A stretch of DNA of 64,000 nucleotides, taken from assembly GCA_021324735.1 (NCBI GenBank), contig JAJPIO010000001.1, forward strand, positions 1-64,000. Direction: 5' to 3'. The notes beneath the pieces were generated by a model. The model was given only the letters and a program-made list of their open reading frames with translations. It was not told the DNA's origin and did not search any database. The stretch comes from Bacteroidota bacterium (GTDB lineage Bacteria > Bacteroidota > Ignavibacteria > Palsa-1295). Shown here in pieces: positions 37,337-55,119 of the stretch. The stretch's first letter is position 1; each line of letters opens with the position of its first letter. The position numbers were made by a program, and so were the translations under genes.

Positions 37337-38290
37337 TTATTGGCAGTCCGGAGCGCCTTCGTTGATCCACTGCCCAATCGTCAGTATTTGGCCGGGCGTA
37401 AGGGTCGGCTGCGGGGGGGGCGGCATGCGGTTGTTCATATCGAGCTGCGTGATAGCGGTGTAAAGCCTGCTGGCCCGGGCATCTCCCTTTCGAACGCTTG
37501 CGACCGTTCCGGCATACGTGTTATAATTATATCCGCCCTTGTGCGATGCGGCATCATGGCAATTGCTCATACCGCAGCTTCCGGAAAGCACCGCCTGAAT
37601 ATCACGCGAATAACATTTGAAGGAATCGGATGACATCAATAAGAGGATCCGTGCCTGCGAATAATTGCTCTCATCATTAGCAGCGACAGCGCGTACGACA
37701 GCGAAGGTGCTATCGTGATCGAGCGTCGCTGGCGCCGTGTACAGCCCACCGGCTGTGATCGAGCCGGGACCAGATATTAGTTGCCATTGAACGTTCGGCA
37801 CCGAGCTTTCGGAGGTAACGGTATCGAGTGCAAATTGCTGCGTCTCGCCTGTCAGCATCGTGACCGATCGAGGGCTTGCGCTGAATCCGGTATCCACCGG
37901 ATAGGCAATAGTCACGACACATTCGACGTAGCGTGAAGGATCTTCATCCGATGTAGCTCGCACTCGCACGGTTGTCGGAAAAACAGTAAGGGCGGTGTCG
38001 GCAATAAATGTCGCGCTAAGACCATTCGAAATGATCTTTCCACTTGTACTGCCGACGACACTCCATGATACTGTACCTGCCTGCTTATAGCCGGTGATCG
38101 TTGCCGTAAGATTTAGTTTACCACCGGTATCGACCGTAGCCGCAATAGGCGAAACATGGACCGTAACCAGACTAACATCCGGATTTCCGGAGAATGTGAA
38201 TTGGCATCCGGCTTCGCGAATGCCAAACAGCGCTATCGCCACCGGAATAAGAAGTGGCAGCAAGCGGGATTTACGTGAGAGCTTTTGCAT
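37337..38290 (-). CDS. Envelope protein with Ig-like domains and a c-type haem (CX4CH)
   Basis: 317 residues. The signal sequence ends in GIREAGCQ, with a Cys at 29 that may carry lipid although Glu at -3 is unusual. Two bacterial Ig-like repeats follow (about 40-215; SVVGSTSGKIISNGLSATFI, GPGSITAGGLYTAPATL). The last 90 residues resemble the planctomycete-type cytochrome domain, with haem motif Cys239-x4-Cys244-His245 (CGMSNCH), possible axial Met289 (RMPPPP) and closing IGQWINEGAPDC. CX4CH instead of CxxCH is rare. It is a paralogue of 44122-45372. Last gene of the leftward cluster with a haem barrel and a Rieske protein, so an electron-transfer role at the cell surface is inferred. Confidence 0.8.
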   Translation of the reverse strand: MQKLSRKSRLLPLLIPVAIALFGIREAGCQFTFSGNPDVSLVTVHVSPIAATVDTGGKLNLTATITGYKQAGTVSWSVVGSTSGKIISNGLSATFIADTALTVFPTTVRVRATSDEDPSRYVECVVTIAYPVDTGFSASPRSVTMLTGETQQFALDTVTSESSVPNVQWQLISGPGSITAGGLYTAPATLDHDSTFAVVRAVAANDESNYSQARILLLMSSDSFKCYSRDIQAVLSGSCGMSNCHDAASHKGGYNYNTYAGTVASVRKGDARASRLYTAITQLDMNNRMPPPPQPTLTPGQILTIGQWINEGAPDCQ

Positions 38291-38320
38291 AGTGACGTTG
38301 ACAGACGATTAGCTGACTGA

Positions 38321-39601
38321 TTAATAGAAGAGATGGATCTGACCGGTCCATTGGCCGGTATAGGTGCCATTGCCGTTGAATGGATTTGTTTGCAGCACAC
38401 GGTATTCCGGCCGGATCTCGATATACGGCCATGGGAAGAACTCGAGGCCAAAGACGAACCCATGCGCGAACGCCAGATCCACGCCGGGATAGACCTCGGT
38501 CTGCCCGTAGTCGTATCGCCACTCGAGCGCGAGCCATTGCATAAGCTCCATACTGCCAAGCACTGTGAAGTTGCGAATGATACGGTCGTCCGCATTTTTC
38601 GAGTACATCCCCTCCACATACAAGCTTGCTTTATCAGCAAGACCAATACCGGCAAAAGCATTGATCATCTTGAATGACCCATTCACGAGGATCGAAGCAC
38701 CGGCTTCGCCATTCAGCCCTTGATCCAACAATTGCGGCCAGACCATCGCACGTGCGGAAAATGTCGGATGACCGAAATCGAACGGACCGGATGGCGCCGG
38801 GATCGTCGCCTCGATCTTCGAGAGATTCGATGCATTGAAGATACCGGCATTGATCGTAAGCCATCGTATGCCCTCGTAGGTCGCTTCTGCGCCCCACTCA
38901 TTGTAATAAGGTGGAATGAGTGCAATTCCCTTGATCGCCGCTTCCTCACGAACAAACTCCGTATGGTCGTCCTGACGAATGCCGATGGAAGGCTGTATCA
39001 TACCAACTCGGATCGAAGGCATGGTGACCGAAGGCTGATATTGAATGGCCGCATCGAAGTCCGTTTCACCGGCATAAAGCGCGCTGGTCGTGCCGAACAG
39101 ATCGTTCATTTGGCTCTGGACCGCTCGCACATAAATGCTTGCAAAATTGATATCGGTGTAAGCCGAAAGTTCTTTGGTTGGCATGATGGCAAGAGATCCG
39201 GAGAGTTGCATGGGAATCAGCAACTCCTGATGCGTCTTCGATTCGCGAACGAGTTGGAATCGCGCATCGCCACCGGGAATGACGAGCCCATTGAACATGG
39301 TGTTCGTTGGCAAATTGCCGGACGTATCTTCGCCGTGCCACTTGAAAATCCCGACCTCATTCATTGTCTCCCACCCCAGCTGTGTGCGTATTCCACTTCC
39401 CTGCGGGTCGAAGTGGCATGCCGAACAACGCGTACCCGTAAGAAGAGAAAAGCGCGGGATAGCGTTAGCCGGAGAAGTCCATACGAAGGCGAGCGCCAGC
39501 ACTACTAATAACAGGACCGGAACCCCGGTGTATTGGAGATAAGATCGCGATACTCTCGCTGTATTATGAGATGGCATCGATCGTGAAGGTAAAATCGTCA
39601 T
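38321..39601 (-). CDS. Outer-membrane barrel-like protein with N-terminal haem c
   Basis: 426 residues. A hydrophobic signal (VPVLLLVVLALAFVWTSPAN) is followed at once by a canonical haem motif, Cys59-x2-Cys62-His63 in TGTRCSACHFDPQGSG. The rest (about 85-426) is a series of amphipathic strands rich in Tyr, Gly and Asp, ending in TGQWTGQIHLFY with terminal aromatic residues as in outer-membrane barrels. So one protein appears to join a haem to a barrel. It sits between a Rieske lipoprotein and an Ig/haem protein on the same strand, 30-42 bases apart, which suggests an operon moving electrons across or at the outer membrane. The topology is inferred. Confidence 0.75.
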   Translation of the reverse strand: MTILPSRSMPSHNTARVSRSYLQYTGVPVLLLVVLALAFVWTSPANAIPRFSLLTGTRCSACHFDPQGSGIRTQLGWETMNEVGIFKWHGEDTSGNLPTNTMFNGLVIPGGDARFQLVRESKTHQELLIPMQLSGSLAIMPTKELSAYTDINFASIYVRAVQSQMNDLFGTTSALYAGETDFDAAIQYQPSVTMPSIRVGMIQPSIGIRQDDHTEFVREEAAIKGIALIPPYYNEWGAEATYEGIRWLTINAGIFNASNLSKIEATIPAPSGPFDFGHPTFSARAMVWPQLLDQGLNGEAGASILVNGSFKMINAFAGIGLADKASLYVEGMYSKNADDRIIRNFTVLGSMELMQWLALEWRYDYGQTEVYPGVDLAFAHGFVFGLEFFPWPYIEIRPEYRVLQTNPFNGNGTYTGQWTGQIHLFY

Positions 39602-39643
39602 AGTAAAAAAGTGATAGAAAGCGTGCGGCTCTAAAGCATCCAG

Positions 39644-40114
39644 CTACGTTAACTTAATATGAAGGACTTGGGAAGCCTGATCGTAGATGGCATCGTATGG
39701 TGTAAGCGGTGCCGTTGCCGGTCCTTGCACGACAGATCCATCCAGCGCGAAGAGAGAGCCGTGGCAACTGCAATGAATATCCCGATTGGAGTCAAGTCTT
39801 GTATCGACCGGGCAGCTTGCATGCGTACACCGTTGTGAGAATGCATGATACACTCCGTTCGCCAACGTGATGACCACGCCCATACCATCGGGCCCGGTAA
39901 CGCCCGGCGCTACTTTATAGGGATTCGCCGGTGTCACGTCCGAAACAAGTACCGCTACCCGCCCGTCCGGTCCCACAGGATTACTATTCGACTGCGGCTC
40001 AAGCGGCGCTGAGGTCGGCATGCAGCTATTGAGTACCGGCAGAACTGCATATCCCAAAGCGGCTGACCCGGCGGCTTTGCTTAAGCCAAGTAAAAATTCT
40101 CTTCGTGTTTTCAT
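39644..40114 (-). CDS. Rieske [2Fe-2S] protein, Tat signal and lipobox-like Cys
   Basis: 156 residues. Twin-arginine signal TRREFLLGLSKAAG and LNSC at 28-31, so probably exported folded by Tat and lipidated. The cluster site is complete: Cys96-x-His98 (CTHASC) and Cys115-x2-His118 (CSCHGS), with Cys101 and Cys117 as the disulfide typical of high-potential Rieske proteins. The C-terminus GSVVQGPATAPLTPYDAIYD is typical. No cytochrome b gene is nearby. It is a paralogue of 45388-45855. Probably a periplasmic one-electron carrier for the neighbouring haem proteins. Confidence 0.92.
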   Translation of the reverse strand: MKTRREFLLGLSKAAGSAALGYAVLPVLNSCMPTSAPLEPQSNSNPVGPDGRVAVLVSDVTPANPYKVAPGVTGPDGMGVVITLANGVYHAFSQRCTHASCPVDTRLDSNRDIHCSCHGSLFALDGSVVQGPATAPLTPYDAIYDQASQVLHIKLT

Positions 40115-40184
40115 TACTGGTGTGAAAAGTGTAATGCACCGCCGCGTGGTCTATCACAGCAATACGGTAACCGTGATACAAAAT

Positions 40185-40970
40185 TCATGCGGCAAACGAC
40201 GGAATGATAGAAGTTATTGCGCCTAATTTTAGTCCGGCATCGCCACCATTGGACGTAATGACCTGAATGGCCCGAACGACAAAATAAATGGAAAGCACGA
40301 TCATAGCAATACCAAAGTATCGCGTGACTTTTTTCGTCCGCTTTTTCGAAACACTCTTATGCGCACGATATGTCGTCGTCGCCAGCAGAAATAAGTACGA
40401 TCCAATGCCCAGGACACCGGCAAGTACGAACATTGCTCGAATGCCTAAGCCAAACTCATGTATAAGTCCGACATCCTTTAAGATACGTGCAGCTAGCAGC
40501 CACCAGGCGATCATCATCGGGTTGGTGAAGGCAAGCGAAAACCCCGCCACGTATGCAGTCCTGGATTTTTTCAAATACTCTGGTTGCGTTCGAAGGCGCC
40601 GCCTCTTTTTCGACCGTGATTCGACCGGCACATCCAGCACATTTACGGTAAGTGGCGGCTCCGCCTCTTCCTCAGCGCTCTCCCGAAGCGACGCAATGCC
40701 GAGTATCATAGTGAGTACGGCATTGATGAGCCAGAAGATCGCTTCGACCTCCGGATTCTGGAAAAATGTGCCTAACCCGAACATAGCGATCGAGCCATAC
40801 ACAAGATCGGACGAGATCGAACCGAGCGCTACCGCAAAGGCCGACCGTAAAAATCCGGCGAGCGAGCGCCGCGCGATCTCGATCTGCGTCGCCCCGACCG
40901 GTATCGCGGCGAGAAACCCGAGAATATAGACACACAGGAAAAGTAAAACGGTACTAAGTAGTGTAGACAC
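40185..40970 (-). CDS. LysE/RhtB-type exporter
   Basis: 261 residues, GTG start. Six likely membrane helices (LLFLCVYILGFLAAIPVGAT, FWLINAVLTMILGIASL, AFTNPMMIAWWLLAARIL, FVLAGVLGIGSYLFLLATT, GIAMIVLSIYFVVRAIQVI). The start GFLAAIPVGATQIEIARRSL and the FTNPMMIAWW block are LysE-family hallmarks. Members export amino acids or small metabolites by proton exchange. A long basic cytoplasmic loop (RSKKRRRLRTQPEYLKKSRT) lies between helices 3 and 4. Its start overlaps the end of the glycosyltransferase by 17 bases. Substrate unknown. Confidence 0.88.
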   Translation of the reverse strand: MSTLLSTVLLFLCVYILGFLAAIPVGATQIEIARRSLAGFLRSAFAVALGSISSDLVYGSIAMFGLGTFFQNPEVEAIFWLINAVLTMILGIASLRESAEEEAEPPLTVNVLDVPVESRSKKRRRLRTQPEYLKKSRTAYVAGFSLAFTNPMMIAWWLLAARILKDVGLIHEFGLGIRAMFVLAGVLGIGSYLFLLATTTYRAHKSVSKKRTKKVTRYFGIAMIVLSIYFVVRAIQVITSNGGDAGLKLGAITSIIPSFAA

Positions 40971-42375
40971 GTTCAGGAATAGTGATAGAAAGAAGATCGG
41001 AGGACGGGATCACGTCGCTTTCGTGGCCGGCACGAAGGCGGTCTGTAGACTGAAAGTAGGAGGAGATATACATAAGAACCCTATCTACCGGCAGCCGATC
41101 GAAGCACCGCACCTGACTACACGACTTGCCAAACTTATTAATACAAGAAATATTCCGGCAGGGTACTGGTGCTGTAAACGAGCGACTGGGGGCCGATTGG
41201 TTCGACGGGGTATGTTCTGATGCTGACGAATCATAACCATACATCCGGGAGTCGGTCGCGCCGTAGATCGCTATGACGGCCGTTCTGTTCCGTAATGATG
41301 AGCCATCCAACGACCGCGCCTTCCAGCACGAAGCAATGTGCAATGGACCGGTATCGCTGGAAATGAACATATCACTCAAGTCGATCATCGCCGTATAAAC
41401 CGGTAGCGGAACGTGTGGAATGAGTACAAATTTATGCTTCCATTCCGGCGCGATCTTCGAAAGGAGCCTCTCTTCTATTCCTTTGCTCGTGTAGGCTTTA
41501 CCAATGAGAACTTTTGAAACTTCCGGCATGCGTGCGATCGATCGCAATAATTGCGACTGGACATCGAACGGCATTTGCCCATACGCCGACGTTGCATCCG
41601 GATTGAACATTACGACGCCAGAGTCAGAAACGATCTGATTGTCTGCAAAAAAATTTTCTGCCGCTGAAACCGATTCCCTATCCAGATAGACCATATTTGC
41701 ATTCAAGTCTATCGTCCGCTCTTTCTCTATATACTCACCGCCGGAATGTTTTGCTGCGTTGAGAAAGGAGTCAAAGAATTGGCGGGATAAATACGAAACG
41801 TGGCGCTCCCCTCCTCGCTTCCATGCTCTCGTTACGTAAGCTGCAAAGGGAACATAGATCTGAAATGCACGAAGGCGTGAAAGGCGGTACGTAAGCGTCT
41901 TCTGAGGTATGAATGGCGACAGATTGAATATCAGCGAAGACGACTCCCGCTCGATCACATTTTTAAGCTCCTGGAGGTCTACCGCTGTCGGCATTCCACG
42001 TTGTCCCTGAATGATATTGTGCACCGTTACATTCGGCATTGCGGCAATGAGTTCACCACCCGTTCGATTACAGGCGTAGTGAATCTCTGCATTCGGGAAA
42101 TGCGACTGAAGTACTCGCATGCACTGAGCCCAGAGCACGGTGTCGCCGATGCAAATATCAACAATGAGCAGTATCTTCGATATTGAATACTCAGATCGAA
42201 TCTTAGCCAAACGCCATTGGCGCTGATACTTCCACCACACCAAGCGAAAAATGAATTCGCTGCCGAGCAGCCCTATAAAGGTACGTTGAAAGAACCGAGG
42301 TATAACGACCGGAAACCGGTCCGTAAGACGGTCCAAAAGATAGAGGCCAATTTTTGAGGCTCCTGTATTAGTCAT
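40954..42375 (-). CDS. Glycosyltransferase family 9 (heptosyltransferase-like)
   Basis: 473 residues from the ATG at 42373-42375 (MTNTGASKIGLYLLDRLTDR). An upstream extension to 42603 would run into the neighbouring gene and is rejected. Two Rossmann halves: N-terminal SKILLIVDICIGDTVLWAQ and C-terminal ISSDTGPLHIASC, the GT9 donor-binding signature; FNPDATSAYGQMP is the linker motif of ADP-heptose transferases. Such enzymes add sugars to lipopolysaccharide core at the inner membrane. The C-terminal region is Cys-rich (CRNISCINKFGKSC), like other GT9 proteins. It lies within the redox cluster, overlapping the LysE-type gene. Confidence 0.86.
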   Translation of the reverse strand: MTNTGASKIGLYLLDRLTDRFPVVIPRFFQRTFIGLLGSEFIFRLVWWKYQRQWRLAKIRSEYSISKILLIVDICIGDTVLWAQCMRVLQSHFPNAEIHYACNRTGGELIAAMPNVTVHNIIQGQRGMPTAVDLQELKNVIERESSSLIFNLSPFIPQKTLTYRLSRLRAFQIYVPFAAYVTRAWKRGGERHVSYLSRQFFDSFLNAAKHSGGEYIEKERTIDLNANMVYLDRESVSAAENFFADNQIVSDSGVVMFNPDATSAYGQMPFDVQSQLLRSIARMPEVSKVLIGKAYTSKGIEERLLSKIAPEWKHKFVLIPHVPLPVYTAMIDLSDMFISSDTGPLHIASCWKARSLDGSSLRNRTAVIAIYGATDSRMYGYDSSASEHTPSNQSAPSRSFTAPVPCRNISCINKFGKSCSQVRCFDRLPVDRVLMYISSYFQSTDRLRAGHESDVIPSSDLLSITIPERVYTT

Positions 42376-42430
42376 GTCGTTCTCTCCGGCGAAGAGGTAC
42401 CGGTAAAAAAGGCAATACTGACGGCCAGGA

Positions 42431-43420
42431 TTACGGCGTAACCATAAGTCCGATCGATACTCCTGAGGTGATGGTGCTTTGACCGTAATAGCCCACGAAG
42501 GCCCCTGCGGTCGTTTGGAGATGGGAAGCGATCGTATACGAGATCGATCCTTCCGTTGCAATACCGAACAGACGCGCGACGGAAGGCGCCTGAACGTTGC
42601 CACTTGCGGCGGCTACCGAAGTGACCGAAGAAGTAAAATAGCTGGGTCCGGCACCAAGCCGGATCTCAAAATCAGAAACGAATAATCGTGCGCCGATCGA
42701 TGCATACAGCTCTTCGTCGTTTCTCTTCCATGGAATGGTGGATGCGTCCGGATGATGCGCCGCAAAATCCTGAATGTCATGCGTGCCGCGCGTCGAGCGG
42801 AAGCCGACGGCGTAGTATCGCCAATCGTCGTTTATTCCTACGGATACGTTCTCGACCAGCATACGGAGGTGATCGAAATACGCACCGGCGGATGCAGTGG
42901 CAAACAGCGTAACATTCGGGTTGATCGGCGCCAGAGACTCACCTGCTCTCAGTGATCTATAATTTTGTGACTGCGCCGCAGCTACTGCGGGGGCCTCCTT
43001 TACCATGGCCACTGGCAAAAGTCCAGGCTCCTTTCCAGCCAGATTAAAAATGTGCACTGCAGTCCCCGTTGTCATATAAGTCCGCCCGCCAACGTGTGGC
43101 ATGGACGAAGCTAGTACTGGCATCGAGGGTTGTAGCCGCTGTGCAACCGCGAACGTTCGAAGATGCTTCTCACTCGTGATCACAGGCGCACGAAGCGTTG
43201 TGTATGCAACCGCTGCGATCGAGCCAAGAGCAAGAAACTCCGTTAGCAGATGGCGCAAAAGGATCTTAGCGGTGATCTTTGGTTCGGCCTCAATTACAAA
43301 CGCCTTTAGGCGCTCGATCGAAACTGGCGACGTGAGATTACGAGCCGGCTGAAAAAGATCGGGCTCATGCGACGCTATGAAGCGTGTGTTCTTGGGCTTA
43401 GCGAGTGTCCAGAATTTCAT
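42431..43420 (-). CDS. Putative anti-sigma-like membrane protein with beta-rich C-terminus
   Basis: 329 residues. The start overlaps the sigma factor stop by 4 bases (43417-43420), the arrangement expected for an anti-sigma factor. The first about 55 residues are soluble with basic helices, then one modest hydrophobic segment (LALGSIAAVAYTTL, about 62-77). The outer part (about 180-329) has alternating strands with SYFTSSVTSVAAASG and ends QSTITSGVSIGLMVTP, resembling small beta-barrels of the OmpA/OprG kind. A cytoplasmic regulator joined to a periplasmic or outer-membrane-like domain is inferred. No standard anti-sigma motif (HxxxCxxC) is present. Confidence 0.65.
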   Translation of the reverse strand: MKFWTLAKPKNTRFIASHEPDLFQPARNLTSPVSIERLKAFVIEAEPKITAKILLRHLLTEFLALGSIAAVAYTTLRAPVITSEKHLRTFAVAQRLQPSMPVLASSMPHVGGRTYMTTGTAVHIFNLAGKEPGLLPVAMVKEAPAVAAAQSQNYRSLRAGESLAPINPNVTLFATASAGAYFDHLRMLVENVSVGINDDWRYYAVGFRSTRGTHDIQDFAAHHPDASTIPWKRNDEELYASIGARLFVSDFEIRLGAGPSYFTSSVTSVAAASGNVQAPSVARLFGIATEGSISYTIASHLQTTAGAFVGYYGQSTITSGVSIGLMVTP

Positions 43421-43983
43421 AGCTGTTGAAGTTGAACATTCACAAGCTCTAACCGCCTCAGGACGAGCGGAATGACATGCTCTTGTTCACTCGGCTCTTC
43501 GACAAGCAAGTGCCGTAAGCGCTTACGCGCGCGAACAAGACGAGATTTTACACCGGAGACCGTACCGCCCTGCATCTCCTGGATTTCTTTAATGGAAAGA
43601 CCCGAAAGCTCGAAGAGTACGATGGCCTCCCGCTCGGCGTGCGGCAACCGACCAAGAGCATCGATCAGCAGACTTAGGTCGTGCGACGATTCCGTTGTGT
43701 TTTCGTACACAACCTCGCTTGCCAGTTCGAGTGGCACAAAAAGCCGCCTTCGCCACCGTTTACGCCGCTGGATCCGTATCGCGATCGTCGATAAGAATTT
43801 TCGGAATGCCTGCGTATCGCGGAGAGCGGGAAAACTGTGGTGCGCTGCAAGGACGGTCTCACTCATCAGGTCGAGAGCATCGTCGTAACTCTCGGTCAGC
43901 ATGCGGCAGAGGCGCCAGGCGTGATGGCGCTCTCTATCGACCAAGGTCCAAAATTCGTTATACCGATCTTCCACGCTTGGCAA
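43417..43983 (-). CDS. ECF-type sigma factor in the redox cluster
   Basis: 188 residues; the first codon is TTG (43981-43983), with GTG three codons on as alternative. Region 2 (LTESYDDALDLMSETVLAAH) and region 4 (LIDALGRLPHAEREAIVLFE, IKEIQEMQGGTVSGVKSRLV) are present. It is coupled to the membrane protein 42431-43420 that may hold it inactive. It likely controls part of the surrounding cluster; a promoter was not identified. Confidence 0.9.
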   Translation of the reverse strand: MPSVEDRYNEFWTLVDRERHHAWRLCRMLTESYDDALDLMSETVLAAHHSFPALRDTQAFRKFLSTIAIRIQRRKRWRRRLFVPLELASEVVYENTTESSHDLSLLIDALGRLPHAEREAIVLFELSGLSIKEIQEMQGGTVSGVKSRLVRARKRLRHLLVEEPSEQEHVIPLVLRRLELVNVQLQQL

Positions 43984-44121
43984 CGGACCTCCCTTTGAGG
44001 CGGGTTATAAATAAGGTGACAGCAACCGGAGAAAAGTTGTCGTCTTCCGCAAAAAGAATACCGCGATCAGAAGCAATCGTGCGATGATACGTCATCATCG
44101 CACGCGAGAAAAGCTCTACCG

Positions 44122-45372
44122 TTAGTCGTTGGGTGCTCCGCGGTTGACCCAGGCTCGGATCTTTGCGACGGTACAAGAATCGAGCGCAGGACCTGTCTGC
44201 GGCATACGAGGATATGGAGAAATGTTACTGATCGTACCCACAAGCTGCCCATTGGCGGCAACGGCTTGTACACCAGAATAAGTTGAAAGATCGATGCCTC
44301 CCGATGAAGGAACACTCGGCCCTGAGTGACAGCCAAGACAGTAATTCTGTATTGCCCCTTTGACAAAACTCGAGTAGTGAATATTCGTCGTATCACATCC
44401 TGCCGTCCCTTGGTCGCACGTTGTATTCTTCGCACCGTCATTGATCCAGCGTGCAATAAGTGCGATCTGATCAGGGCTAAGCGGCGGACGCGACTTGGGC
44501 ATTCTGTCCTCACCGGTACCAGTGATCGAAGTATACAACCGGCTTTGTGAGGCACTACCTGCACGAACGTAGCGCATAATTCTGGAATAGGTCGTCAGGT
44601 CCTCGGCGTCACCATTACTGCCGGCACTATGACATCCACTCATCGTACAATTACTTGTAATGATAGGTAGTATAAGCGATTGAAAGCACGGAGTTGTATC
44701 TGCCGGTGGCATGATCGTGATCGTTGCCTGTGCCCATACGCTGGTATCAGCTTGCGCTGTCGCTTGAACGATAGCAGTAGCACTTGAGCCGACCGAAGCT
44801 GGCGCGACATAAAGGCCTTGTGCCGAAAGTGTACCCGGACCGCTTACAAGTTTCCAGGATATATTGGTGTTTGCGGTATTAGATACCGTTGCTTGAAACT
44901 GCTGGCTTTGTCCTGGCTGAAGCGTAACCGAAAATGGAGTGAGTACGATGCTCACCTTGATATTTGTATCGATCGGACCACTGGATGTAATGGTGATCGT
45001 GCAATAACCTGAACGCGAAGTATCTTCTTTCGATTGTGCCCGGACGATAACAATAGTTGGGCTTGCTTTCAGATGCGCTGGACTGATGTAAGTTGCACTG
45101 TTACCTGTCGCTACCAGCGTACCGGTTGTGTCCGACATGGACCATATAACTGTGCTGTCACTCTTCCAGCCGCTTACCGTCGCTTTCAATTGAACGGCGG
45201 TACTCGTCGCCATCGAATCGGTGAGTGGCGAAATGCTTACGCTAATGCCGCCGGTGATCCCGTTACCACCTTTGGGTGGCAATACGGTATAATCGCACGC
45301 AGCTTCGCGAAGCACAAATAGCACTGCGAATACAGCGACCACTACTTTCCAAAATATCCGATGAAACTTCAT
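44122..45372 (-). CDS. Envelope protein with Ig-like domains and two c-type haem modules
   Basis: 416 residues. The signal ends in LREAACDY, again Cys (26) after REA as in its paralogue 37337-38290. Two Ig-like domains (about 43-220), then two planctomycete-type cytochrome modules. The first has Cys242-x4-Cys247-His248 (CTMSGCH) with Met291 (DRMPKSRPP); the second a standard Cys345-x2-Cys348-His349 (YCLGCHSG) with Met390 (PRMPQTG) and closing IRAWVNRGAPND. Each module ends in a W-I/V-N-x-GA motif. A di-haem surface electron carrier is inferred. It follows a Rieske gene by 15 bases, so the two form an operon. Confidence 0.82.
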   Translation of the reverse strand: MKFHRIFWKVVVAVFAVLFVLREAACDYTVLPPKGGNGITGGISVSISPLTDSMATSTAVQLKATVSGWKSDSTVIWSMSDTTGTLVATGNSATYISPAHLKASPTIVIVRAQSKEDTSRSGYCTITITSSGPIDTNIKVSIVLTPFSVTLQPGQSQQFQATVSNTANTNISWKLVSGPGTLSAQGLYVAPASVGSSATAIVQATAQADTSVWAQATITIMPPADTTPCFQSLILPIITSNCTMSGCHSAGSNGDAEDLTTYSRIMRYVRAGSASQSRLYTSITGTGEDRMPKSRPPLSPDQIALIARWINDGAKNTTCDQGTAGCDTTNIHYSSFVKGAIQNYCLGCHSGPSVPSSGGIDLSTYSGVQAVAANGQLVGTISNISPYPRMPQTGPALDSCTVAKIRAWVNRGAPND

Positions 45373-45387
45373 ATCACTCTCACATTC

Positions 45388-45855
45388 TCAGACTAACTTA
45401 ATACGAAGCTGCTTGTTGGCAGCATCGTAGACGCCATCATATTGGTGCAAATTTGCGGTTGCGGGACCTTGCACCACTTTCCCGGAAAGATCATATTGCG
45501 ATCCATGACAGGCGCATGGGATCACACCGTTCGAAGCTTTTGAATTGATCTCACACGCGGCATGCGTGCATAGCATCGACATCGCGTAGTAGCTCGTTCC
45601 TCCGGTAAAAGTCACCATCACCGGCATTCCATCCGGACCCGTAAGACCGGGCGCCATTTTTGCCGGATTAGAACTGGTCAGGTCCGAAACGTCGATACCA
45701 ATACGACCATCGGGTCCGGGCGGAGGCGGCGTAACCGAGTTCGACGCCGCACTCGGGAATGAGGTCGGTTCGCAGGCCTCCAGAACGGCAAGGCCAGCCA
45801 TACCGCCAATGGCGATCTTACCCGTCCAAGCCAAAAATTCACGCCGCGTGGTCAT
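45388..45855 (-). CDS. Rieske [2Fe-2S] protein, second copy
   Basis: 155 residues. Tat signal TRREFLAWTGK with Cys28 in VLEAC. Cluster ligands Cys96/His98 (CTHAAC) and Cys114/His117 (CACHGSQ); the disulfide pair Cys101/Cys116 is present. Close paralogue of 39644-40114, sharing PAKMAPGLTGPDGMPV-like and VVQGPATA blocks. First gene of the leftward cluster, directly before the di-haem Ig protein. The electron partner is likely that protein. Confidence 0.92.
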   Translation of the reverse strand: MTTRREFLAWTGKIAIGGMAGLAVLEACEPTSFPSAASNSVTPPPPGPDGRIGIDVSDLTSSNPAKMAPGLTGPDGMPVMVTFTGGTSYYAMSMLCTHAACEINSKASNGVIPCACHGSQYDLSGKVVQGPATANLHQYDGVYDAANKQLRIKLV

Positions 45856-45934: not shown

Positions 45935-46055
45935 CATGAATAACAAACACTTATGTAACGTTATTCTGCTCCGATAACTGCCCAATTTTGCTGCTATACG
46001 CCAGGTGGTAAAGCATGGGGAAACTATTAAGCCAAAAATCGTTTAATACCGATTG

Positions 46056-46430
46056 GTGAAGAAACTTCTTGCCATAGTCTTAGCGATCGCGATGCTCGTC
46101 TCGTCGTCCGGCGTGACGATAGCAAGCGTTGTGTGTAAACGTCAGGCGACGACCACGTCGAACATGTGCACGCACTGTCGTAAAGCGTCATCGGGCATTT
46201 CCTTAACCTCCAAATCCTGCTGCGTTAAGATCAATAAGTTTCTTTCTGTAAAATCCGAGTTCGCTAAGCCGGTCCAACATACTGTTGTACTTCCTCATCA
46301 AGTGCTTCCGGTCATTGCAATCATTTGTGCACCGATCGCGACAGTACCTACAACCTTCGGATCACACTCCCCGACTTCTCCTCCATCCTCATTGGAGAAG
46401 TGCGCCCTTACCTCGATCTTCCGCATCTAA
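46056..46430 (+). CDS. Small secreted Cys-rich protein upstream of Cus genes
   Basis: 124 residues from GTG 46056 (a TTG at 46053 is alternative). Signal peptide VKKLLAIVLAIAMLVSSSGV, then a Cys-rich part (VVCKRQ, MCTHCRK, KSCCVKI) and a Pro/Ser tail (SHSPTSPPSS). This layout recalls the HYC_CC_PP family of Bacteroidota, small proteins found beside metal-efflux genes, although its first motif is altered. It may bind copper in the periplasm. First gene of the rightward efflux operon. Confidence 0.65.
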   Translation: MKKLLAIVLAIAMLVSSSGVTIASVVCKRQATTTSNMCTHCRKASSGISLTSKSCCVKINKFLSVKSEFAKPVQHTVVLPHQVLPVIAIICAPIATVPTTFGSHSPTSPPSSLEKCALTSIFRI

Positions 46431-46457
46431 AATAGACTCATACTAATTACGTAGCAC

Positions 46458-46500
46458 CGATTTGCGTCGGATGCTATCGGCTATTTGCAGCCGCAAATCG
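46458..46500. repeat. Inverted repeat before the TolC-like gene
   Basis: CGATTTGCG (46458-46466) and CGCAAATCG (46492-46500) are perfect 9-bp arms, 48 bases before the ATG at 46549. It could be an operator or a weak attenuator hairpin within the efflux operon. Confidence 0.4.
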
Positions 46501-46548
46501 CTAACTAATTATTAGGATGACTTGGCCATCCAAAGAATATGAGTTCGA

Positions 46549-47910
46549 ATGATAAGACTTAAGATTGCTATTGTAATTGCACTTGCCAGCGTCGCAAGCA
46601 GAAATTCCGTTGCCCAGACAGCAGCAGATTCCGACATATCCGACCTTTACCAAATGCTGGGTTCGGTCGGTGTGCACCCCATGGTTCAGGTTGAGCGTGC
46701 AAACATCGAGGCCGCACGGCATCGCATCGCAATGAAATCCTCGCTGATGAATCCGATGCTCATGCTCGGCATCGAGAATCTACCCACCAATAATTTTAGC
46801 TTTTCCGAAGAGCCGATGACGGCGAAAATGATCGGCATCAGCCAGTCATTCCCGTTTCCGGGCAAGCTTAGGATCGAGGGCGAAATAGCGGCGGTCGATA
46901 CTATAACCGCTTCAACTGCAATGAGCGAACAGGAGAATACGCTCGCCCGAGATATAAAACTCGCCTACTTCGACATTTACCACCTCGAGCGTTCGATCGC
47001 TACCAATGAATTTCACGTGCACTCGCTGGAAGAATTGCTTATAGCAGAGCGCTCGAAGCTTACAACGGGATCGGCAACACAATCGGAGATCTTAAATCTC
47101 GAACTCGAAAAAGCAGATATTCAAACGCAGATCGTTGATGATCAGATGACGCTCGCAATGCGAAAGGCTGACCTGGAACGAGCACTCGGAAAAGCGCCAA
47201 CGAACCTACAGATGCCAACTCAAATGGCATTGCCACGATTAGCCTATGGCATCACTGACCTCGATAGCATTGCGTCCCATGCTCGACCCAAACTTGCAGG
47301 ATTGAGGGCACAAGCTGATCAGCAAGTGCTTCAGTCCGAACGCTCGCGACTAAATAAGTACCCCGATTTTGATCTTTCCCTACAATATATGCAGCGCGAC
47401 GCCCTCTTAGCAACGTCGCCTATGAATCCGAGCAATAGCCCTTCGGCGGCACAGCTCGGCATCATGCCAATGCCGATGGCGCAATCGGACATGGTCTCGG
47501 CAACGCTGAGCATCGAGTTGCCGATCAATTATGGCGATCAGCGTGAAGAAGCATCGTCTGAAGCTAATGCTATGCGAACGATGAAGTTGGCAGAAGAGCG
47601 CGCAACGGCGCTCGACATTCACGCCGATCTAAAAACAAATCTCGCCAAATTACAAGGACTGCGACGGGAGTATGCCATACTTCAAGACACCATATATCCG
47701 GTGGTACAAATGAGCTTAAAGACGAGTCAAGCCAATTACACGTACGGTAAGGCAACGATCGAGCAAGTACTTCGGGACGAATTGAATCTGCTTCACCGCG
47801 AACACGATCGGTACCGGCTCGAGGCAGAATATAACAAGACACTCGCCGAGATCGAATACCTCACCGGACAAAACCTCGTGCAATATTCAAGTATCAATGA
47901 CTGGAAGTGA
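46549..47910 (+). CDS. cusC: TolC-family outer-membrane efflux protein (CusC-like)
   Basis: 453 residues with a signal peptide (MIRLKIAIVIALASVASRNS). Two coiled-coil repeats of the outer-membrane efflux channel fold: ARHRIAMKSSLMNPMLMLGI and the long helix LLIAERSKLTTGSATQSEIL; SFPFPGKLRIEGEI and YTYGKATIEQVLRDELNLL are typical of heavy-metal (CusC/CzcC) members. Met-rich segments (PMPMAQSDM, SPMNPSNSP) may help metal passage. The channel spans the outer membrane and docks with CusB and CusA encoded next. Confidence 0.92.
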   Translation: MIRLKIAIVIALASVASRNSVAQTAADSDISDLYQMLGSVGVHPMVQVERANIEAARHRIAMKSSLMNPMLMLGIENLPTNNFSFSEEPMTAKMIGISQSFPFPGKLRIEGEIAAVDTITASTAMSEQENTLARDIKLAYFDIYHLERSIATNEFHVHSLEELLIAERSKLTTGSATQSEILNLELEKADIQTQIVDDQMTLAMRKADLERALGKAPTNLQMPTQMALPRLAYGITDLDSIASHARPKLAGLRAQADQQVLQSERSRLNKYPDFDLSLQYMQRDALLATSPMNPSNSPSAAQLGIMPMPMAQSDMVSATLSIELPINYGDQREEASSEANAMRTMKLAEERATALDIHADLKTNLAKLQGLRREYAILQDTIYPVVQMSLKTSQANYTYGKATIEQVLRDELNLLHREHDRYRLEAEYNKTLAEIEYLTGQNLVQYSSINDWK

Positions 47911-47913
47911 CGC

Positions 47914-49359
47914 ATGGAAACTACAACAACCACCTCGACAAACTCACGCTCAAAGAACTATTGGTTCGTTGGAGTGCTCGCTATTGTAATAGTGATCGCA
48001 GCGCTTCTACTTATTCTAAAGCCGTGGTCTCCACATAAGATCACAACGAAGACCACCATTGTAACTTCGATGACGATGACGCCGGCAGACTCGGTCGCCA
48101 TGGTCATGCTGTCGAATCCCACGATCGTGCGGTCGGGAATCGCCACTATACCAGTCGAAACGCGAGAGTTCTCGAGCGAGGTCACAGCGGTCGGCTCGAT
48201 CGCCATTCCGGAACCTGCTCAGCATACGATCGCTGCGCGCGCTCGAGGCCGTATCGAACACATGTTCGTTGCTGCGAGTGGAGCGTATGTTAAAGCAGGC
48301 CAACCGCTCTTCGAATTTTACTCGCCTGATATTCTCAATGCCGAACGAGAATACCTGATCGCTGTAAGCGGTGAGAAGGGACAAACGATGGCTGGCATGC
48401 AAGGGATGTCCGAGCATACTCGCCAGCATTTGGGTCTCGTAAGGGCTGGGAAGGAGCGATTAAAACTTTTAGGACTAACGGACGATCAGATCCGCCGCAT
48501 CGAGGATGATGGCACCGTTGCAAATACGATATTGATGCTCGCTCCAGCGAACGGCCTTGTCATTCAAAAGCTAGGACAAGAAGGCGCATACGTTGACGAA
48601 GGCACCAGCATTTATCAGCTTGCTGACCTATCGACCGTATGGGCTGAGATCCAAGTACCGGAGTCGGCCATTCGCTTTATTCGCGATGGAGAGTCGATCA
48701 GCATTACCTCTCCAGCCTATCCCACCGATCGGTTTACCGGCCGAGTGATCTTTGTTTCGCCGGTAGAAGACGCGGCTTCTAAGACTATTCGCGTTCGTGT
48801 TGCCCTTTCAAATGCATCGGGCAAATTGCGGCCTCAAATGACATTTAATGCTTCAATACCGATTGCGGGCGGGCGGTCCTTAGCAATTCCTGCCAGCGCG
48901 GTTATTCGAACTGGTCAAGGCGATTTCGTATGGGTGCATGATGGCGGCGACAATTTCACTTCTCATTCAGTAACGCTTGGAGCACTATCATCAGACAATT
49001 ATTATCAGATCCTCTCCGGTCTCGATGCTGGCGATGAGGTTGCCGCTCAAGGGGCCTTCTTAGTCGATGCAGAGTATCAGTTCACGAAAAATAATCCGAT
49101 GGCCGGTATGAATATGGGCGAGACCGGAAATAAGAATTCCGGTGAAGGCACCGGCACTGTCCGAGCGATCGATCCGGCCAAACAGACCATCACTCTCGAT
49201 CATGGTAATGTGCCGGGCGTCATGCCCGCTATGACAATGGCTTATAAGGCAAACGATCCTGCATTTCTAAAGCAAGTACAGATCAACGATGCTGTCCGCT
49301 TTACCCTCACACGGATGCCGAATGGAAATTTTGATATCACTGCAATCCAGAAACAGTAG
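47914..49359 (+). CDS. cusB: CusB-like adaptor with fused CusF-like domain
   Basis: 481 residues. N-terminal membrane anchor (YWFVGVLAIVIVIAALLLIL), then the RND adaptor parts: lipoyl/barrel-sandwich (RARGRIEHMFVAASGAYVKA), a helical hairpin, beta-barrel (AIRFIRDGESISITSPAYP). The C-terminal 75 residues are a CusF-type metal-binding domain with HGNVPGVMPAMTMAYKA (His, Met, Met-x-Met ligands). It links CusA to CusC and delivers copper or silver. The gene starts 3 bases after cusC. Confidence 0.93.
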   Translation: METTTTTSTNSRSKNYWFVGVLAIVIVIAALLLILKPWSPHKITTKTTIVTSMTMTPADSVAMVMLSNPTIVRSGIATIPVETREFSSEVTAVGSIAIPEPAQHTIAARARGRIEHMFVAASGAYVKAGQPLFEFYSPDILNAEREYLIAVSGEKGQTMAGMQGMSEHTRQHLGLVRAGKERLKLLGLTDDQIRRIEDDGTVANTILMLAPANGLVIQKLGQEGAYVDEGTSIYQLADLSTVWAEIQVPESAIRFIRDGESISITSPAYPTDRFTGRVIFVSPVEDAASKTIRVRVALSNASGKLRPQMTFNASIPIAGGRSLAIPASAVIRTGQGDFVWVHDGGDNFTSHSVTLGALSSDNYYQILSGLDAGDEVAAQGAFLVDAEYQFTKNNPMAGMNMGETGNKNSGEGTGTVRAIDPAKQTITLDHGNVPGVMPAMTMAYKANDPAFLKQVQINDAVRFTLTRMPNGNFDITAIQKQ

Positions 49360-49391
49360 CAACTTAATTTCATAATCAACTCCCTATACAT

Positions 49392-49733
49392 ATGAAAACA
49401 GCCTCAGTAATACTCCTTACGCTCCTTCTTATCGGAGCATCCGCTGCAATAACTTTCGGTACAACGAATAGTCATTCTATCGTAACTCCTAATAGATCCA
49501 GAAAGGGACGTGGCCTCATTAAAGGGATCGACACATCGGCCAAGGTGCTCGATATATCGCATAATACTATTCCACACATCATGATGGCGATGCGAATGAG
49601 ATATCCGATAGCCAAAGCATCGATGCTTAACGGACTTGCAGTTGGCGACTCGGTAATTTTTACGCTGTCCTCTAAAGATGGTAATTATCTCGTCACGCGG
49701 ATATCCAAAATAGAGAAGCTGCCTCGTAAATGA
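49392..49733 (+). CDS. cusF: CusF-like periplasmic metal chaperone
   Basis: 113 residues with a signal peptide (MKTASVILLTLLLIGASAAI). The core matches the CusF domain of the previous protein: GLIKGIDTSAKVLDISHN, then IMMAMRMRYPI with the His and Met-x-Met ligands; the Trp that covers the metal in CusF is Met here, as in the CusB fusion. Periplasmic Cu(I)/Ag(I) carrier that hands metal to the pump. Confidence 0.88.
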   Translation: MKTASVILLTLLLIGASAAITFGTTNSHSIVTPNRSRKGRGLIKGIDTSAKVLDISHNTIPHIMMAMRMRYPIAKASMLNGLAVGDSVIFTLSSKDGNYLVTRISKIEKLPRK

Positions 49734-49767
49734 TGCTCCATTTCGACTTCGCGCAAAAGAGTAAAGC

Positions 49768-49790
49768 ACCCGCTTCAAACGGAAGCGGGT
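49768..49790 (+). repeat. Hairpin between cusF and cusA
   Basis: ACCCGCTTC (49768-49776) and GAAGCGGGT (49782-49790), 9-bp perfect stem, loop AAACG, no T-run. It may adjust expression of cusA relative to the upstream genes. Confidence 0.5.
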
Positions 49791-49842
49791 TATGCCACTC
49801 ATTTTGCCTCCCGTTCACAGGCTTTTTAAAATCCACCCAACG

Positions 49843-52800
49843 ATGATCGAACGTATAGTAACCTGGAGCGCAAGCCATCGCATTATTGTCCTTGGACTGT
49901 TCGTCTTGATCTCAGTCCTTGGTGCCTGGGCGATCGCAACAACTCCGCTCGATGCGATTCCGGATCTCTCGGAGAATCAGGTCATCGTTTTTTCCCAATA
50001 CATGGGGCAATCGCCACAGATCGTGGAAGACCAGGTGACGTTTCCACTTGTCACCGCTTTGCAAGGACTGCCGCAAGTCAAAGCGGTTCGCGCAACTTCG
50101 ATGTTCGGCATGAGCTTCGTCTATGTGATCTTCGAAGATAATGTCGACATCTATTGGGCACGCTCTCGAGTGCTCGAAAAGCTGGCAACCGTTCAAGGCA
50201 CACTTCCCGCCGGTTCTACTACGCAATTGGGGCCCGACGGCACCGGCGTAGGACATGTCTTCTGGTATACCGTTGAAGGTAACGGCTACGATCTCGGTAC
50301 ACTTCGCAGCATTCAGGATTGGTTTATCAAACCACAATTGCAATCCGTCGAAGGTGTAGCAGAAGACGCATCGGTCGGAGGTTATGTGCGCGAATATCAG
50401 ATCAATCTCGATCCGCACAAGCTGCAGCTATACGGCATTACAAACGCCGACATTACCACTGCTGTAATGCGTTCGAATAACGCCGTGGGTGGCCGCATTG
50501 TTGAAATAAATGGCAAAGAGAATTTCGTACGCGGACAAGGTTACTTTACTTCGCCGGAGGAATTCCGATCTATTTCACTCACATCACAAAATGGCGTCGT
50601 AATCCATCTTGGCGATGTGGCCGACGTAACGATCGGCCCGCTTCCCCGTCGCGGCTCGCTCGATAAGAACGGTGAAGGTGAAGTAACTGGCGGCATTATT
50701 GTCATGCGCACAGGCGAAAATGCCAAGCATGTGATCGACCGAGTAAAAGAACGCATTGCTGAGATCGCGCCGGGCCTGCCAAAGGGCGTAACGATCCAAC
50801 CAGCGTACGACCGTTCTGAACTTATCGAAGCATCGGTTGCGAACCTTGAACACACGCTTATCGAAGAAGCGATCATTGTTACGATCGTCATACTCCTTTT
50901 CCTATTTCACCTGCCGAGTGCACTTCGTATTGTTATCGAGATTCCGGTCTCGGTGCTTATCGCATTTATTCTCATGCGCTTGTTCGGTATTACATCGAAC
51001 ATTATGTCGCTCGGAGGAATAGCGATCGGTATCGGTGTATTGGTCGATGCATCGATCGTGCTCTTAGAGAATGCACATCGGCACCTCTCGGAAGCACAAC
51101 ATCGCAAGGAAACGGAAGGGATCGAGTACGACTACAAAGCAGTAGTCGTACGCAGTGCACAACAAGTTGCCCGCCCGATCTTCTTTTCGATCCTGATCAT
51201 CGTCGTAAGCTTTCTTCCGGTCTTCTTACTGACGGGCGAGGAAGGAAAGCTCTTCCATCCACTCGCCTTTACAAAGACGTTTTCGCTCATGGCAAGCGCG
51301 CTCGTCTCTATTACACTGGTGCCTGTACTCATGACACTGCTCATGAAAGGTAAGATGCGACCGGAAGAGAAGAATCCGGTCTCGCGATTCTTTCAAACGC
51401 TGTATCTGCCGATCTTACGGTGGGCCTTGCATCATCGCAAAACCGCGATCGCAATCAATGCTCTCGCACTCCTCATTGCGATACCGATCGTTTTGAATCT
51501 CGGTACCGAATTTATGCCGCCTCTGGATGAGGGCAGTCTGCTCTTCATGCCGCTGCTCGTGCCGAGTGTTTCGATGCCGGAGGCAACTCGCATTCTCGAA
51601 GCGCAGGATGCCATCATCAAGCACTATCCGGAAGTCGAGCAAGTGTTGGGCAAGGTAGGTAAAGCCGAGACGGCAACGGATCCGGCCCCGCAATCGATGA
51701 TCGAAACGATCATTCTGCTCAAGCCACGCGATAAGTGGCGGCCTGGTATCACGAAGGATAAGATCATTACCGATCTTAGCCGTGAACTTCAAATGCCAGG
51801 CGTCGCACTCGGATGGACGCAACCGATCATCAATCGCATTAACATGCTCTCGACCGGCGTGCGCACCGATCTTGGAATTAAATTTTTCGGCGATAATCTC
51901 GATACGCTCGAACGCCTCGCCATCGATGCTGAAAGTCTACTCAAAGGTGTACCAGGCGCTGCGGATGTCGCTGCAGAGCGAGTACAAGGCGGATCGTTTC
52001 TCGAAATAACGATGAGACCGGAAGCAGCGAACCTCTACGGAATAAGCCCGGCCTACATTAATAATATAATTGAGACGGCCGTTGGTGGTGAAAGCGCCGG
52101 CACTGTTGTCGATGGCCGCGCGCGTTTTCCTGTTACAGTCCGTTATGCGCCCGCGTATCGCCAATCGGTCGATGCGTTACGTGAGTTGCCGGTTCCGATA
52201 ACAATTCCACAGTTTCAAAATCAATTTATACCGAGTTCAACTTCGCTCGGTGCAAACGTGGCAACCAATTCTTCGAATGCAGAAGACGGTATGTCCGGCA
52301 TGGGTGCATCTTCACCGACTCCACCATCTTCGATGCCTACTGCAAAGCTCGCGACGTCACAAACGAACAGTACAAGCCTTCTTTCGCCGGCACTCATCAC
52401 GTCGATCCAATACGTGCCACTCGGTGCGCTTGCAACGGTCGAAATAAAAGATGGCCCGCCAATGATCTCGAGTGAGAATGCGCTCCTCAGATCGATCGTC
52501 TATCTTAACGTTCGCGGCCGCGATATGGGAAGCTTTGTCGGTGAAGCGAAATCGGTGTTAGCGAAGAACCTGCACATTCCCACCGGCTATACACTCTCCT
52601 GGAGCGGCCAATACGAACAGCAACAGCATGCGGCATCACAACTGCGTATCATGGTACCGCTCGTCTTTCTCATCATCTTCTTGTTACTTCTCTTCACATT
52701 ACGAGATGCGAAAGAAGCGGCAGTTGTGATGTTGAGTGTGCCATTCGCCTTGATCGGCGGAGTCTATCTTATCGCGCTGCTCGGGATGAATCTCTCGGTC

Positions 52801-53211
52801 GCGGTGTGGGTGGGATTCATCGCGCTCTATGGTGTCGCCACCGAAACGGGCGTCGTGATGGTCGTCTATCTACACGAAGCGCTCGACCGCAAATTGCGCG
52901 CAGCGAATGGCAAGCCGCTTACACGCGAAGATATTTTCGACGCAACGATCAACGGCGCCGCATTGCGACTTCGCCCCAAGCTAATGACCGTCGCCACTGC
53001 AATGCTCGGCCTTGTGCCAATTCTGTTCTCCAACGGCACCGGCTCCGACGTGATGAAACCCATCGCTGCACCGATGATCGGAGGCATGCTGACGAGCGCG
53101 ATCCACGTGCTTATCGTCACACCGATATTATTCTACCTGATGAAAGTGCGCTCGCTCAAGCGCGGCACCTTGCGCGAAAGCTCGATGGCTAAGTGGATGT
53201 CGGAAGGGTAA
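49843..53211 (+). CDS. cusA: Heavy-metal RND efflux pump CusA
   Basis: 1122 residues from the ATG at 49843 (MIERIVTWSASHRIIVLGLF). HME-RND family: 12 membrane helices, AIPDLSENQVIV near the first, the GGIAIGIGVLVDASIVLLEN helix and two porter domains with PVTVRYAPAYRQ. A CusA-like Met-rich periplasmic site is expected. Unusual point: after LPVPI a low-complexity insert (about residues 785-850; SSNAEDGMSGMGASSPTPPS) replaces the short linker before YVPLGALATVEIKDG. The pump drives Cu(I)/Ag(I) out with proton influx. Last gene of the operon. Confidence 0.95.
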   Translation: MIERIVTWSASHRIIVLGLFVLISVLGAWAIATTPLDAIPDLSENQVIVFSQYMGQSPQIVEDQVTFPLVTALQGLPQVKAVRATSMFGMSFVYVIFEDNVDIYWARSRVLEKLATVQGTLPAGSTTQLGPDGTGVGHVFWYTVEGNGYDLGTLRSIQDWFIKPQLQSVEGVAEDASVGGYVREYQINLDPHKLQLYGITNADITTAVMRSNNAVGGRIVEINGKENFVRGQGYFTSPEEFRSISLTSQNGVVIHLGDVADVTIGPLPRRGSLDKNGEGEVTGGIIVMRTGENAKHVIDRVKERIAEIAPGLPKGVTIQPAYDRSELIEASVANLEHTLIEEAIIVTIVILLFLFHLPSALRIVIEIPVSVLIAFILMRLFGITSNIMSLGGIAIGIGVLVDASIVLLENAHRHLSEAQHRKETEGIEYDYKAVVVRSAQQVARPIFFSILIIVVSFLPVFLLTGEEGKLFHPLAFTKTFSLMASALVSITLVPVLMTLLMKGKMRPEEKNPVSRFFQTLYLPILRWALHHRKTAIAINALALLIAIPIVLNLGTEFMPPLDEGSLLFMPLLVPSVSMPEATRILEAQDAIIKHYPEVEQVLGKVGKAETATDPAPQSMIETIILLKPRDKWRPGITKDKIITDLSRELQMPGVALGWTQPIINRINMLSTGVRTDLGIKFFGDNLDTLERLAIDAESLLKGVPGAADVAAERVQGGSFLEITMRPEAANLYGISPAYINNIIETAVGGESAGTVVDGRARFPVTVRYAPAYRQSVDALRELPVPITIPQFQNQFIPSSTSLGANVATNSSNAEDGMSGMGASSPTPPSSMPTAKLATSQTNSTSLLSPALITSIQYVPLGALATVEIKDGPPMISSENALLRSIVYLNVRGRDMGSFVGEAKSVLAKNLHIPTGYTLSWSGQYEQQQHAASQLRIMVPLVFLIIFLLLLFTLRDAKEAAVVMLSVPFALIGGVYLIALLGMNLSVAVWVGFIALYGVATETGVVMVVYLHEALDRKLRAANGKPLTREDIFDATINGAALRLRPKLMTVATAMLGLVPILFSNGTGSDVMKPIAAPMIGGMLTSAIHVLIVTPILFYLMKVRSLKRGTLRESSMAKWMSEG

Positions 53212-53790: not shown

Positions 53791-54049
53791 GCTTTTTCTC
53801 CCACGATCTGCCCTCCCAATCCCTCCGGCAATTTTTCTCCCCTACCGCCGAAAATACTTTACTCCCGTGCGTGACAGCTCCGTGAAAACACGCACGCGGC
53901 GCGCGACAATCGCCACATTTGGCTTGGGGCACGGATATTCCCTCTCTTCCTGAACGTGGCGCATGAGCACGCGCTATCGGAGGCTACCGAGGTGTTGGCA
54001 ACGAATAGCACGAGGACACCCGCTCATGCGCCACCGTTCATCACTGGTT

Positions 54050-55111: not shown

Positions 55112-55119
55112 TATTTTTG
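55112..55119 (+). promoter_or_regulatory. Candidate -7 promoter element of the restriction-modification genes
   Basis: TATTTTTG then CAGG, matching TAnnTTTG, 77 bases before the vsr start at 55196. Downstream ATTACC-aacaa-GGTAAT (55141-55157) is a perfect 6-bp dyad that could be an operator. Confidence 0.42.

Follow-up and report, generated by a model that had tools for sequence, protein, structure and literature searches.

The locus lies at positions 37337-45855 on the minus strand of the window (the whole 64,000-nucleotide stretch of DNA analysed here, from a soil bacterium) and consists of nine ORFs, every one of which is confirmed in the ORF list of the window. In order of transcription these encode Rieske 2, Ig-like cytochrome 2, an ECF sigma factor, an ECF-linked protein, a family 9 glycosyltransferase (GT9), a LysE-type exporter, Rieske 1, a haem barrel and Ig-like cytochrome 1. 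The features are given below in that order; the assignment to modules A and B follows from the comparison with related genomes discussed later.

45388-45855, minus strand: Rieske 2 (module B); Pfam Rieske, E 1.4e-12; CTHAAC...CACHGSQY, with ligands at 45505-45570; RREF; orthologues at loci L175, L180 and L181
44122-45372, minus strand: Ig-like cytochrome 2 (module B); Pfam PSCyt1/Cytochrome_CBB3; two Ig-like domains; CX4CH at 44629-44649 and CXXCH at 44326-44340
44078-44104, minus strand: 12-pair hairpin between module B and the ECF gene, terminator-like with a weak T run, from a consensus scan only
43417-43983, minus strand: ECF sigma factor; Pfam Sigma70_r4_2, E 3.8e-13; opens the module A operon; syntenic in L174, L178 and L183
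42431-43420, minus strand: ECF-paired protein (P42); 4-base overlap with the ECF gene; no Pfam match
40954-42375, minus strand: glycosyltransferase family 9 (Glyco_transf_9); Pfam E 2.2e-5; ORF open to 42603
40185-40970, minus strand: LysE-type exporter; Pfam E 1.4e-18; syntenic in congeners
39644-40114, minus strand: Rieske 1 (module A); Pfam Rieske, E 8.5e-13; CTHASC...CSCHGSLF, with ligands at 39761-39829
38321-39601, minus strand: putative fused monohaem cytochrome-porin, Cyc2-like (module A); 16-strand barrel over residues 107-425 in the AlphaFold2 (AF2) model
39413-39463, minus strand: haem-attachment module AIPRFSLLTGTRCSACH, residues 47-63, between signal peptide and barrel
38963-38965, minus strand: codon of His213, in the beta5-beta6 loop; candidate distal haem ligand
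37337-38290, minus strand: Ig-like cytochrome 1 (module A); Pfam PSCyt1, E 5.1e-7; CX4CH (CGMSNCH) at 37556-37576

Intergenic distances in the run range from -17 to 138 bases, leaving aside a 173-base overlap at the GT9 gene. We regard this overlap as spurious because the start of the GT9 ORF is placed too far upstream; the alignment with relatives opens at residue 77, and the true start is likely near 42375. Because the hairpin separates the second gene from the ECF gene, modules A and B may be separate transcription units, though the suggestion is weak; the consensus scan that gave the hairpin found 14 terminator-like sites against 9.5 expected. Module A may be under ECF control. The protein encoded at 42431-43420, whose orthologues (25-26% identical) adjoin the ECF gene in L174, L178 and L183, is possibly a membrane-bound regulator of the ECF factor. 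Pfam matches to ECF, LysE and Glyco_transf_9 bear out an earlier, sequence-only reading of this DNA, which had placed an ECF sigma factor, an exporter and a glycosyltransferase within the run. On the plus strand at 46053-53211, divergent from the run, lie CusC/CusB/CusF/CusA-like copper or silver efflux genes, with a CusF-like domain present twice, once fused to CusB and once free-standing.

The same reading had recognised two Rieske lipoproteins among the nine minus-strand genes, and the ORFs, the Pfam Rieske matches and the Tat signals with a lipobox-like Cys all agree with it. Both proteins belong to the Rieske domain family by their Pfam match and their intact CxH...CxxH ligands, and in both a Tat RR motif is followed by a lipobox-like Cys, which in the homologue alignment is conserved 20-30 residues past that motif. 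The cluster ligands are invariant across homologues; the disulphide Cys pair and the Ser/Tyr residues, which tune the potential of Rieske proteins, differ between lineages. The Rieske subunits of bc and b6f complexes and the small subunit of arsenite oxidase share with these proteins the Rieske fold, the CxH...CxxH ligands and a Tat signal, whereas the lipobox-like Cys and a run without a cytochrome b or arsenite oxidase gene set the window proteins apart. Indeed, both score far under the NCBIfam cut-offs for bc/b6f and arsenite oxidase Rieske subunits, and they do not belong to a cytochrome bc or b6f complex by gene content, as no cytochrome b gene accompanies either one. As had been claimed, the nine genes include no cytochrome b; one is present on another contig of the genome (L064). 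The 3.55-Mb genome encodes nine Rieske domains in all.

Two Ig-like proteins with planctomycete-type haem domains had also been described, and Pfam supports the PSCyt1 assignment; the haem motifs, however, need correction to one CX4CH in the 37337-38290 protein and to a CX4CH plus a CXXCH in the 44122-45372 protein. At the first haem of Ig-like cytochrome 2, residues C242, C247, H248 and M291 are invariant in 13 relatives. Its AF2 model contains two beta-sandwiches and helical domains (pLDDT 65), with the haem half at low confidence. PSCyt1 and LIC11213-type lipoprotein cytochromes likewise combine a CX4CH or CXXCH haem domain with a conserved Met, but in the window proteins two Ig-like domains precede it and the genes are linked to a Rieske protein and a haem porin. 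Orthologues of Ig-like cytochrome 1 come after the barrel in L174, L176, L178, L179, L182 and L183.

The barrel protein is the centre of the locus. It is 426 residues long, with CSACH at residues 59-63 and a C-terminal aromatic residue, and has no family in Pfam or NCBIfam; its profile has no significant match among PDB sequences. An AF2 model built from an alignment of 26 homologues has 16 strands (mean pLDDT 80.2), in line with the earlier description of a barrel carrying a CSACH motif, and the closest solved structures in fold searches are the 16-strand porins OprO/OprP, OmpU and PorB (Z about 22-25). By sequence and model, the gene product is exported, folds as a 16-strand porin and bears a covalent-haem motif right after the signal peptide; outer-membrane location and haem attachment are predicted. 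The conservation of the haem motif in homologues, on which the earlier reading depended, is complete: among 83 close homologues, CXXCH is kept in all 81 barrels that reach the N-terminus. His213 and Met131 (83/83 each) and His423, Arg72 and Gly76 (82/82 each) are equally constant, and all of these features also hold in 6/6 distant barrel paralogues. CXXCH and three further possible ligands are invariant down to 23% identity. In the AF2 strand order, His213 (in the motif DDH) falls between strands 5 and 6, the position of L3, which is the constriction loop of classical 16-strand porins. We take His213 to be the likely distal haem ligand.

The architecture of the barrel is that of Cyc2, which has been described as a signal peptide, a single N-terminal CXXCH and a 16-strand porin of at least 365 residues (PMC8406198). 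The window protein has a signal peptide, its CSACH near the N-terminus and 16 strands within 426 residues, and its haem module is collinear with that of Cyc2: A-x-P-x-F, then T-G, then C-x-x-C-H. However, Cyc2 is defined by AXPXFAR[Q/K][T/Y] before the CXXCH and PXL after it (Keffer et al. 2021, PMC8406198). The first motif occurs in 0/83 homologues, the window barrel having AIPRFSLLT, and the second also in 0/83. We therefore rejected a canonical Cyc2 label, as 83/83 homologues fail both motif rules. A profile built from Cyc2-like proteins collected in plasmid records was searched, with a loose threshold, against all 3.55 Mb of the genome and matched only three places: two proteins on contig C19 (E 1e-11 and 5e-10) and the N-terminus of the window barrel (E 1.8e-4). 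In a search of the family it matched five more window-type barrels in relatives (E 3e-4 to 9e-4).

Profile-profile comparison gave a similar picture. An hhalign comparison of the barrel with Cyc2-like proteins reached E 1.6e-6, with the alignment restricted to the signal and haem motif; at full length nothing aligned beyond the haem module. Because the alignment stops there, homology of the barrel part to Cyc2 is unproven. Published Cyc2 lineages themselves show significant homology to one another only at the N-terminus (PMC5566968). In a control that set the N-terminal module against other CXXCH sites, an unrelated site outscored the Cyc2 profile, in a control set that retained barrel paralogues; our argument therefore leans on the profile match across the genome rather than on this control. 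The pattern AxPxF..TG..CxxCH occurs in 74/98 barrels and, at the loci of these barrels, in 0/46 further CXXCH sites. Neither fold search, run against libraries of solved structures only, listed a Cyc2 structure among its 50 matches shown, which carries no weight for or against. On the strength of the collinear motif, the profile matches and the fact that homology among Cyc2 lineages is likewise confined to the N-terminus, we call the haem module Cyc2-like; by its motifs the protein falls outside Cyc2 proper.

Cyc2 of Acidithiobacillus, Mariprofundus and Gallionellaceae and the window barrel thus have in common a signal peptide, one N-terminal CXXCH, a 16-strand porin of about 400 residues and the AxPxF...TG module. 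The window barrel differs in having no FAR[QK][TY] or PXL, and in having a GG-x-RN-x-LG motif past the haem, an invariant DDH(T) loop and a C-terminal His. The partners differ as well: barrels of the window type go with a Rieske lipoprotein, accompanied by YceI and a small membrane protein, and Cyc2 goes with Cyc1, rusticyanin or a HiPIP. For Cyc2PV-1, reduction by Fe(II) and a potential of about +208 mV are on record (PMC8406198). Pairing with an Fe-S carrier is nonetheless shared, since Cyc2 loci can include a HiPIP (PMC5566968). The two C19 proteins are canonical Cyc2, with AMPNFARKY...CSACHTVVPCL and AVPVFARKY...CFTCHTTPPLL, and their genes flank a cluster encoding a cytochrome b with fused cytochrome c, a Rieske protein and a cytochrome c (L064, G000:C19:48000-60000). 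The presence of this standard marker makes the bacterium a candidate iron oxidiser.

PioABC, MtoAB and MtrCAB also form trans-outer-membrane conduits, and in PioABC the barrel and cytochrome are joined by an Fe-S carrier, the HiPIP PioC. In these systems, however, a separate multihaem cytochrome is threaded through a larger barrel, of about 26 strands in porin-cytochrome complexes (PMC10654088), whereas the window protein would fuse one haem to a 16-strand barrel. With a single fused haem, 16 strands and no MtrA-type multihaem protein among the nine genes, the locus is not of the MtrAB/PioAB/MtoAB type. The earlier statement that no known porin-cytochrome gene is present therefore stands as regards MtrA-type genes, but it overlooked the barrel itself, which is of the Cyc2-type fused cytochrome-porin kind.

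A barrel scan of 84,980 genomes yielded 80 loci, whose submitter names include Kapabacteria, Ignavibacteria, Bacteroidetes, Myxococcales, Deltaproteobacteria, Latescibacterota, Gemmatimonadota and others. Among the 68 of these with sufficient flank, 61 have a same-strand Rieske gene within 2.8 kb of the barrel, upstream in 26 and downstream in 35. This linkage of about 90% compares with about 1% expected by chance in a 3.5 Mb genome that has nine Rieske genes. Sequence comparison thus identifies barrel plus Rieske as the conserved core, in several phyla and in both gene orders. The pair of Rieske and Ig/PSCyt1 proteins predicted to be conserved was set aside as the unit: Rieske linkage is indeed conserved, but with the barrel, and the Ig-cytochrome is local to the window's own family and a few neighbours rather than universal among barrel loci. 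Elsewhere its place is occupied by a YceI protein and a membrane protein of about 100 residues, the usual companions of barrel and Rieske. The architectures found were barrel-small-YceI-Rieske (15), cytochrome-barrel-small-Rieske (15), Rieske-barrel-YceI-small (10) and Rieske-barrel-YceI (7); in this four-partner mapping the window's family has Rieske-barrel-Ig-cytochrome. YceI was identified by Pfam in seven representatives (E about 1e-20 to 1e-28), from which the YceI profile was built; one further neighbour tested (L181) was not YceI. In the window's own genome, the YceI and small-protein genes sit together on contig C8, away from the locus. No Rieske neighbour is found beside the barrel in a Latescibacterota clade or beside the distant CXXCH-bearing barrel paralogues.

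Comparison within the genus clarifies why the window holds two Rieske genes and one barrel. Module A, with the order Rieske-barrel-Ig-cytochrome and one haem in the last, occurs in six congeners, and most copies follow ECF-P42-GT9-LysE or whichever part of it the contig holds. Module B, with the order Rieske-Ig-cytochrome-barrel and two haems in the cytochrome, occurs at a separate site in three genomes, and its barrel forms a well-supported clade within the genus. Rieske 2 and Ig-cytochrome 2 of the window match module B, and no second close barrel was found in the window's own genome. Because congeners carry both modules complete and the window genome has no second close barrel, our best reading is of two diverged three-gene modules, the window holding module A together with module B minus its barrel. 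The sequence-only reading was thus right about duplication and divergence; its two-gene unit becomes, in congeners, a three-gene one in two gene orders, the second copy in the window being without a barrel. Because ECF, LysE and GT9 are linked within the genus only and the Cus genes do not lie beside module A in congeners, we place all of these outside the conserved core, and a copper/Cus link as the core of the system was rejected on the latter ground.

These results lead us to lean, with modest confidence, towards a model in which the locus encodes a Cyc2-like conduit that takes electrons across the outer membrane, with the Rieske lipoprotein as periplasmic carrier and flow probably inward; the model draws on sequence, structure prediction and analogy. 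The haem module would plug the barrel from the periplasmic side, with His213 as distal ligand. The model would have an electron enter at the barrel haem from a donor outside the cell, the analogy with Cyc2 pointing first to Fe(II), and pass to the cluster of the Rieske lipoprotein as periplasmic acceptor. In this lineage it might then reach the Ig-like one- or two-haem cytochrome, acting as a lineage-specific relay or a surface-presented partner, before moving to periplasmic carriers and on to the oxidases or to complex III or alternative complex III of the genome. The genome has two COX1 genes, whose flanking ORFs, by inspection, resemble an alternative complex III-oxidase set and a cbb3-type set. 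Module B, having no barrel of its own, may draw on the barrel of module A or on the two canonical Cyc2 proteins encoded on contig C19. A chain from a periplasmic Rieske carrier to haem at the outer surface had been proposed before, and the conserved set of Rieske, haem barrel and cytochrome fits it, while direction and substrate are inferred. Two points incline us to inward flow: the high potential of Rieske centres and the canonical Cyc2 encoded in the same genome. Counting against the model as a whole are the missing Cyc2 motifs, a barrel part that does not align with Cyc2, the Latescibacterota clade whose barrels have no Rieske neighbour, the separate site of the YceI and small-protein genes in the window's own genome, and the patchy occurrence of the Ig-cytochrome.

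Flow could instead be outward, with cell electrons passing through Rieske and Ig-cytochrome to the barrel haem and on to Fe(III), humics or a partner cell. Direction is not fixed by the cytochrome-porin type, and in one Ignavibacteria locus (L058) a six-haem lipoprotein with MtrC/MtrF domains (8344-9411; PF22113, E 7e-13) is encoded directly upstream of the barrel-Rieske pair; MtrC-like proteins serve outward electron transfer. At a second Ignavibacteria locus (L057, 4080-7525), multihaem lipoproteins of similar build, with five and six CXXCH, lie upstream of the barrel, the cytochrome unit being repeated. These neighbours provide independent support for extracellular electron transfer and count for the inward model too. 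Rieske centres are, however, generally high-potential and so ill suited to reducing typical Fe(III) minerals, the window's own genome is equipped for oxygen respiration, and it has no MtrC domain above the Pfam cut-off, so that we consider an outward conduit unlikely.

It is also rather improbable that the system is a redox sensor, detoxification or envelope-stress device, in which the haem porin would meet an oxidant, metal or lipid-soluble quinone, Rieske and YceI would recycle it and the ECF factor would signal. The ECF and exporter genes within the module A operon, the YceI partner and the divergently adjacent Cus-like cluster would all suit such a role, but the genus-only linkage of ECF, LysE and GT9, the absence of Cus genes beside module A in congeners, the MtrC-like neighbour and the Cyc2-type module favour electron transfer. 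An ordinary solute porin with structural or vestigial haem and an incidental Rieske neighbour, though it would explain the classical 16-strand fold, is very hard to reconcile with CXXCH and possible ligands that stay invariant down to 23% identity and with Rieske linkage so far above expectation.

Returning to the inward conduit, a broader proposal, which we regard as evenly balanced, is that these barrels constitute an unnamed, widespread monohaem cytochrome-porin family, distinct from but parallel to Cyc2. Its members would hold a bis-His haem by the porin L3 loop and each work with a Rieske lipoprotein of its own, sited in the outer membrane or the periplasm, together with YceI and a small membrane protein; they would serve extracellular electron uptake in Kapabacteria/Ignavibacteria, Myxococcota and other phyla. 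What is new is the partner set, the conserved signature and the taxa; a recognisable relative of Cyc2 among fused cytochrome-porins is not. We found no description of a Rieske-linked cytochrome-porin or Rieske/YceI system in the open-access literature, a scope that leaves out most subscription journals. Cyc2 serves as a marker gene for microbial iron oxidation. Screens of that kind would overlook another lineage of cytochrome-porins in which the Cyc2 motifs are missing, so electron-exchanging bacteria may be more numerous and more varied than is now assumed. The Rieske fold would also gain a new use if a Rieske lipoprotein regularly served an outer-membrane haem porin as its partner, and the co-occurrence of canonical Cyc2 and the window system within one genome makes a direct comparison possible.

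Several observations stand beside these results. L067 4911-6287 (G000:C3) and L068-L073 represent a second, distant CXXCH barrel family with the same invariant His and Met and with no Rieske gene nearby. In a Latescibacterota genome (L119, 5929-11630), three barrel copies share a common N-terminal segment and two are truncated, the result of recent duplication or an assembly artefact. Finally, the plus strand of the window at 53254-59026 encodes an ORF6N domain protein, a C5-cytosine DNA methylase and a KwaB-like (Kiwa defence) protein, a possible defence island.
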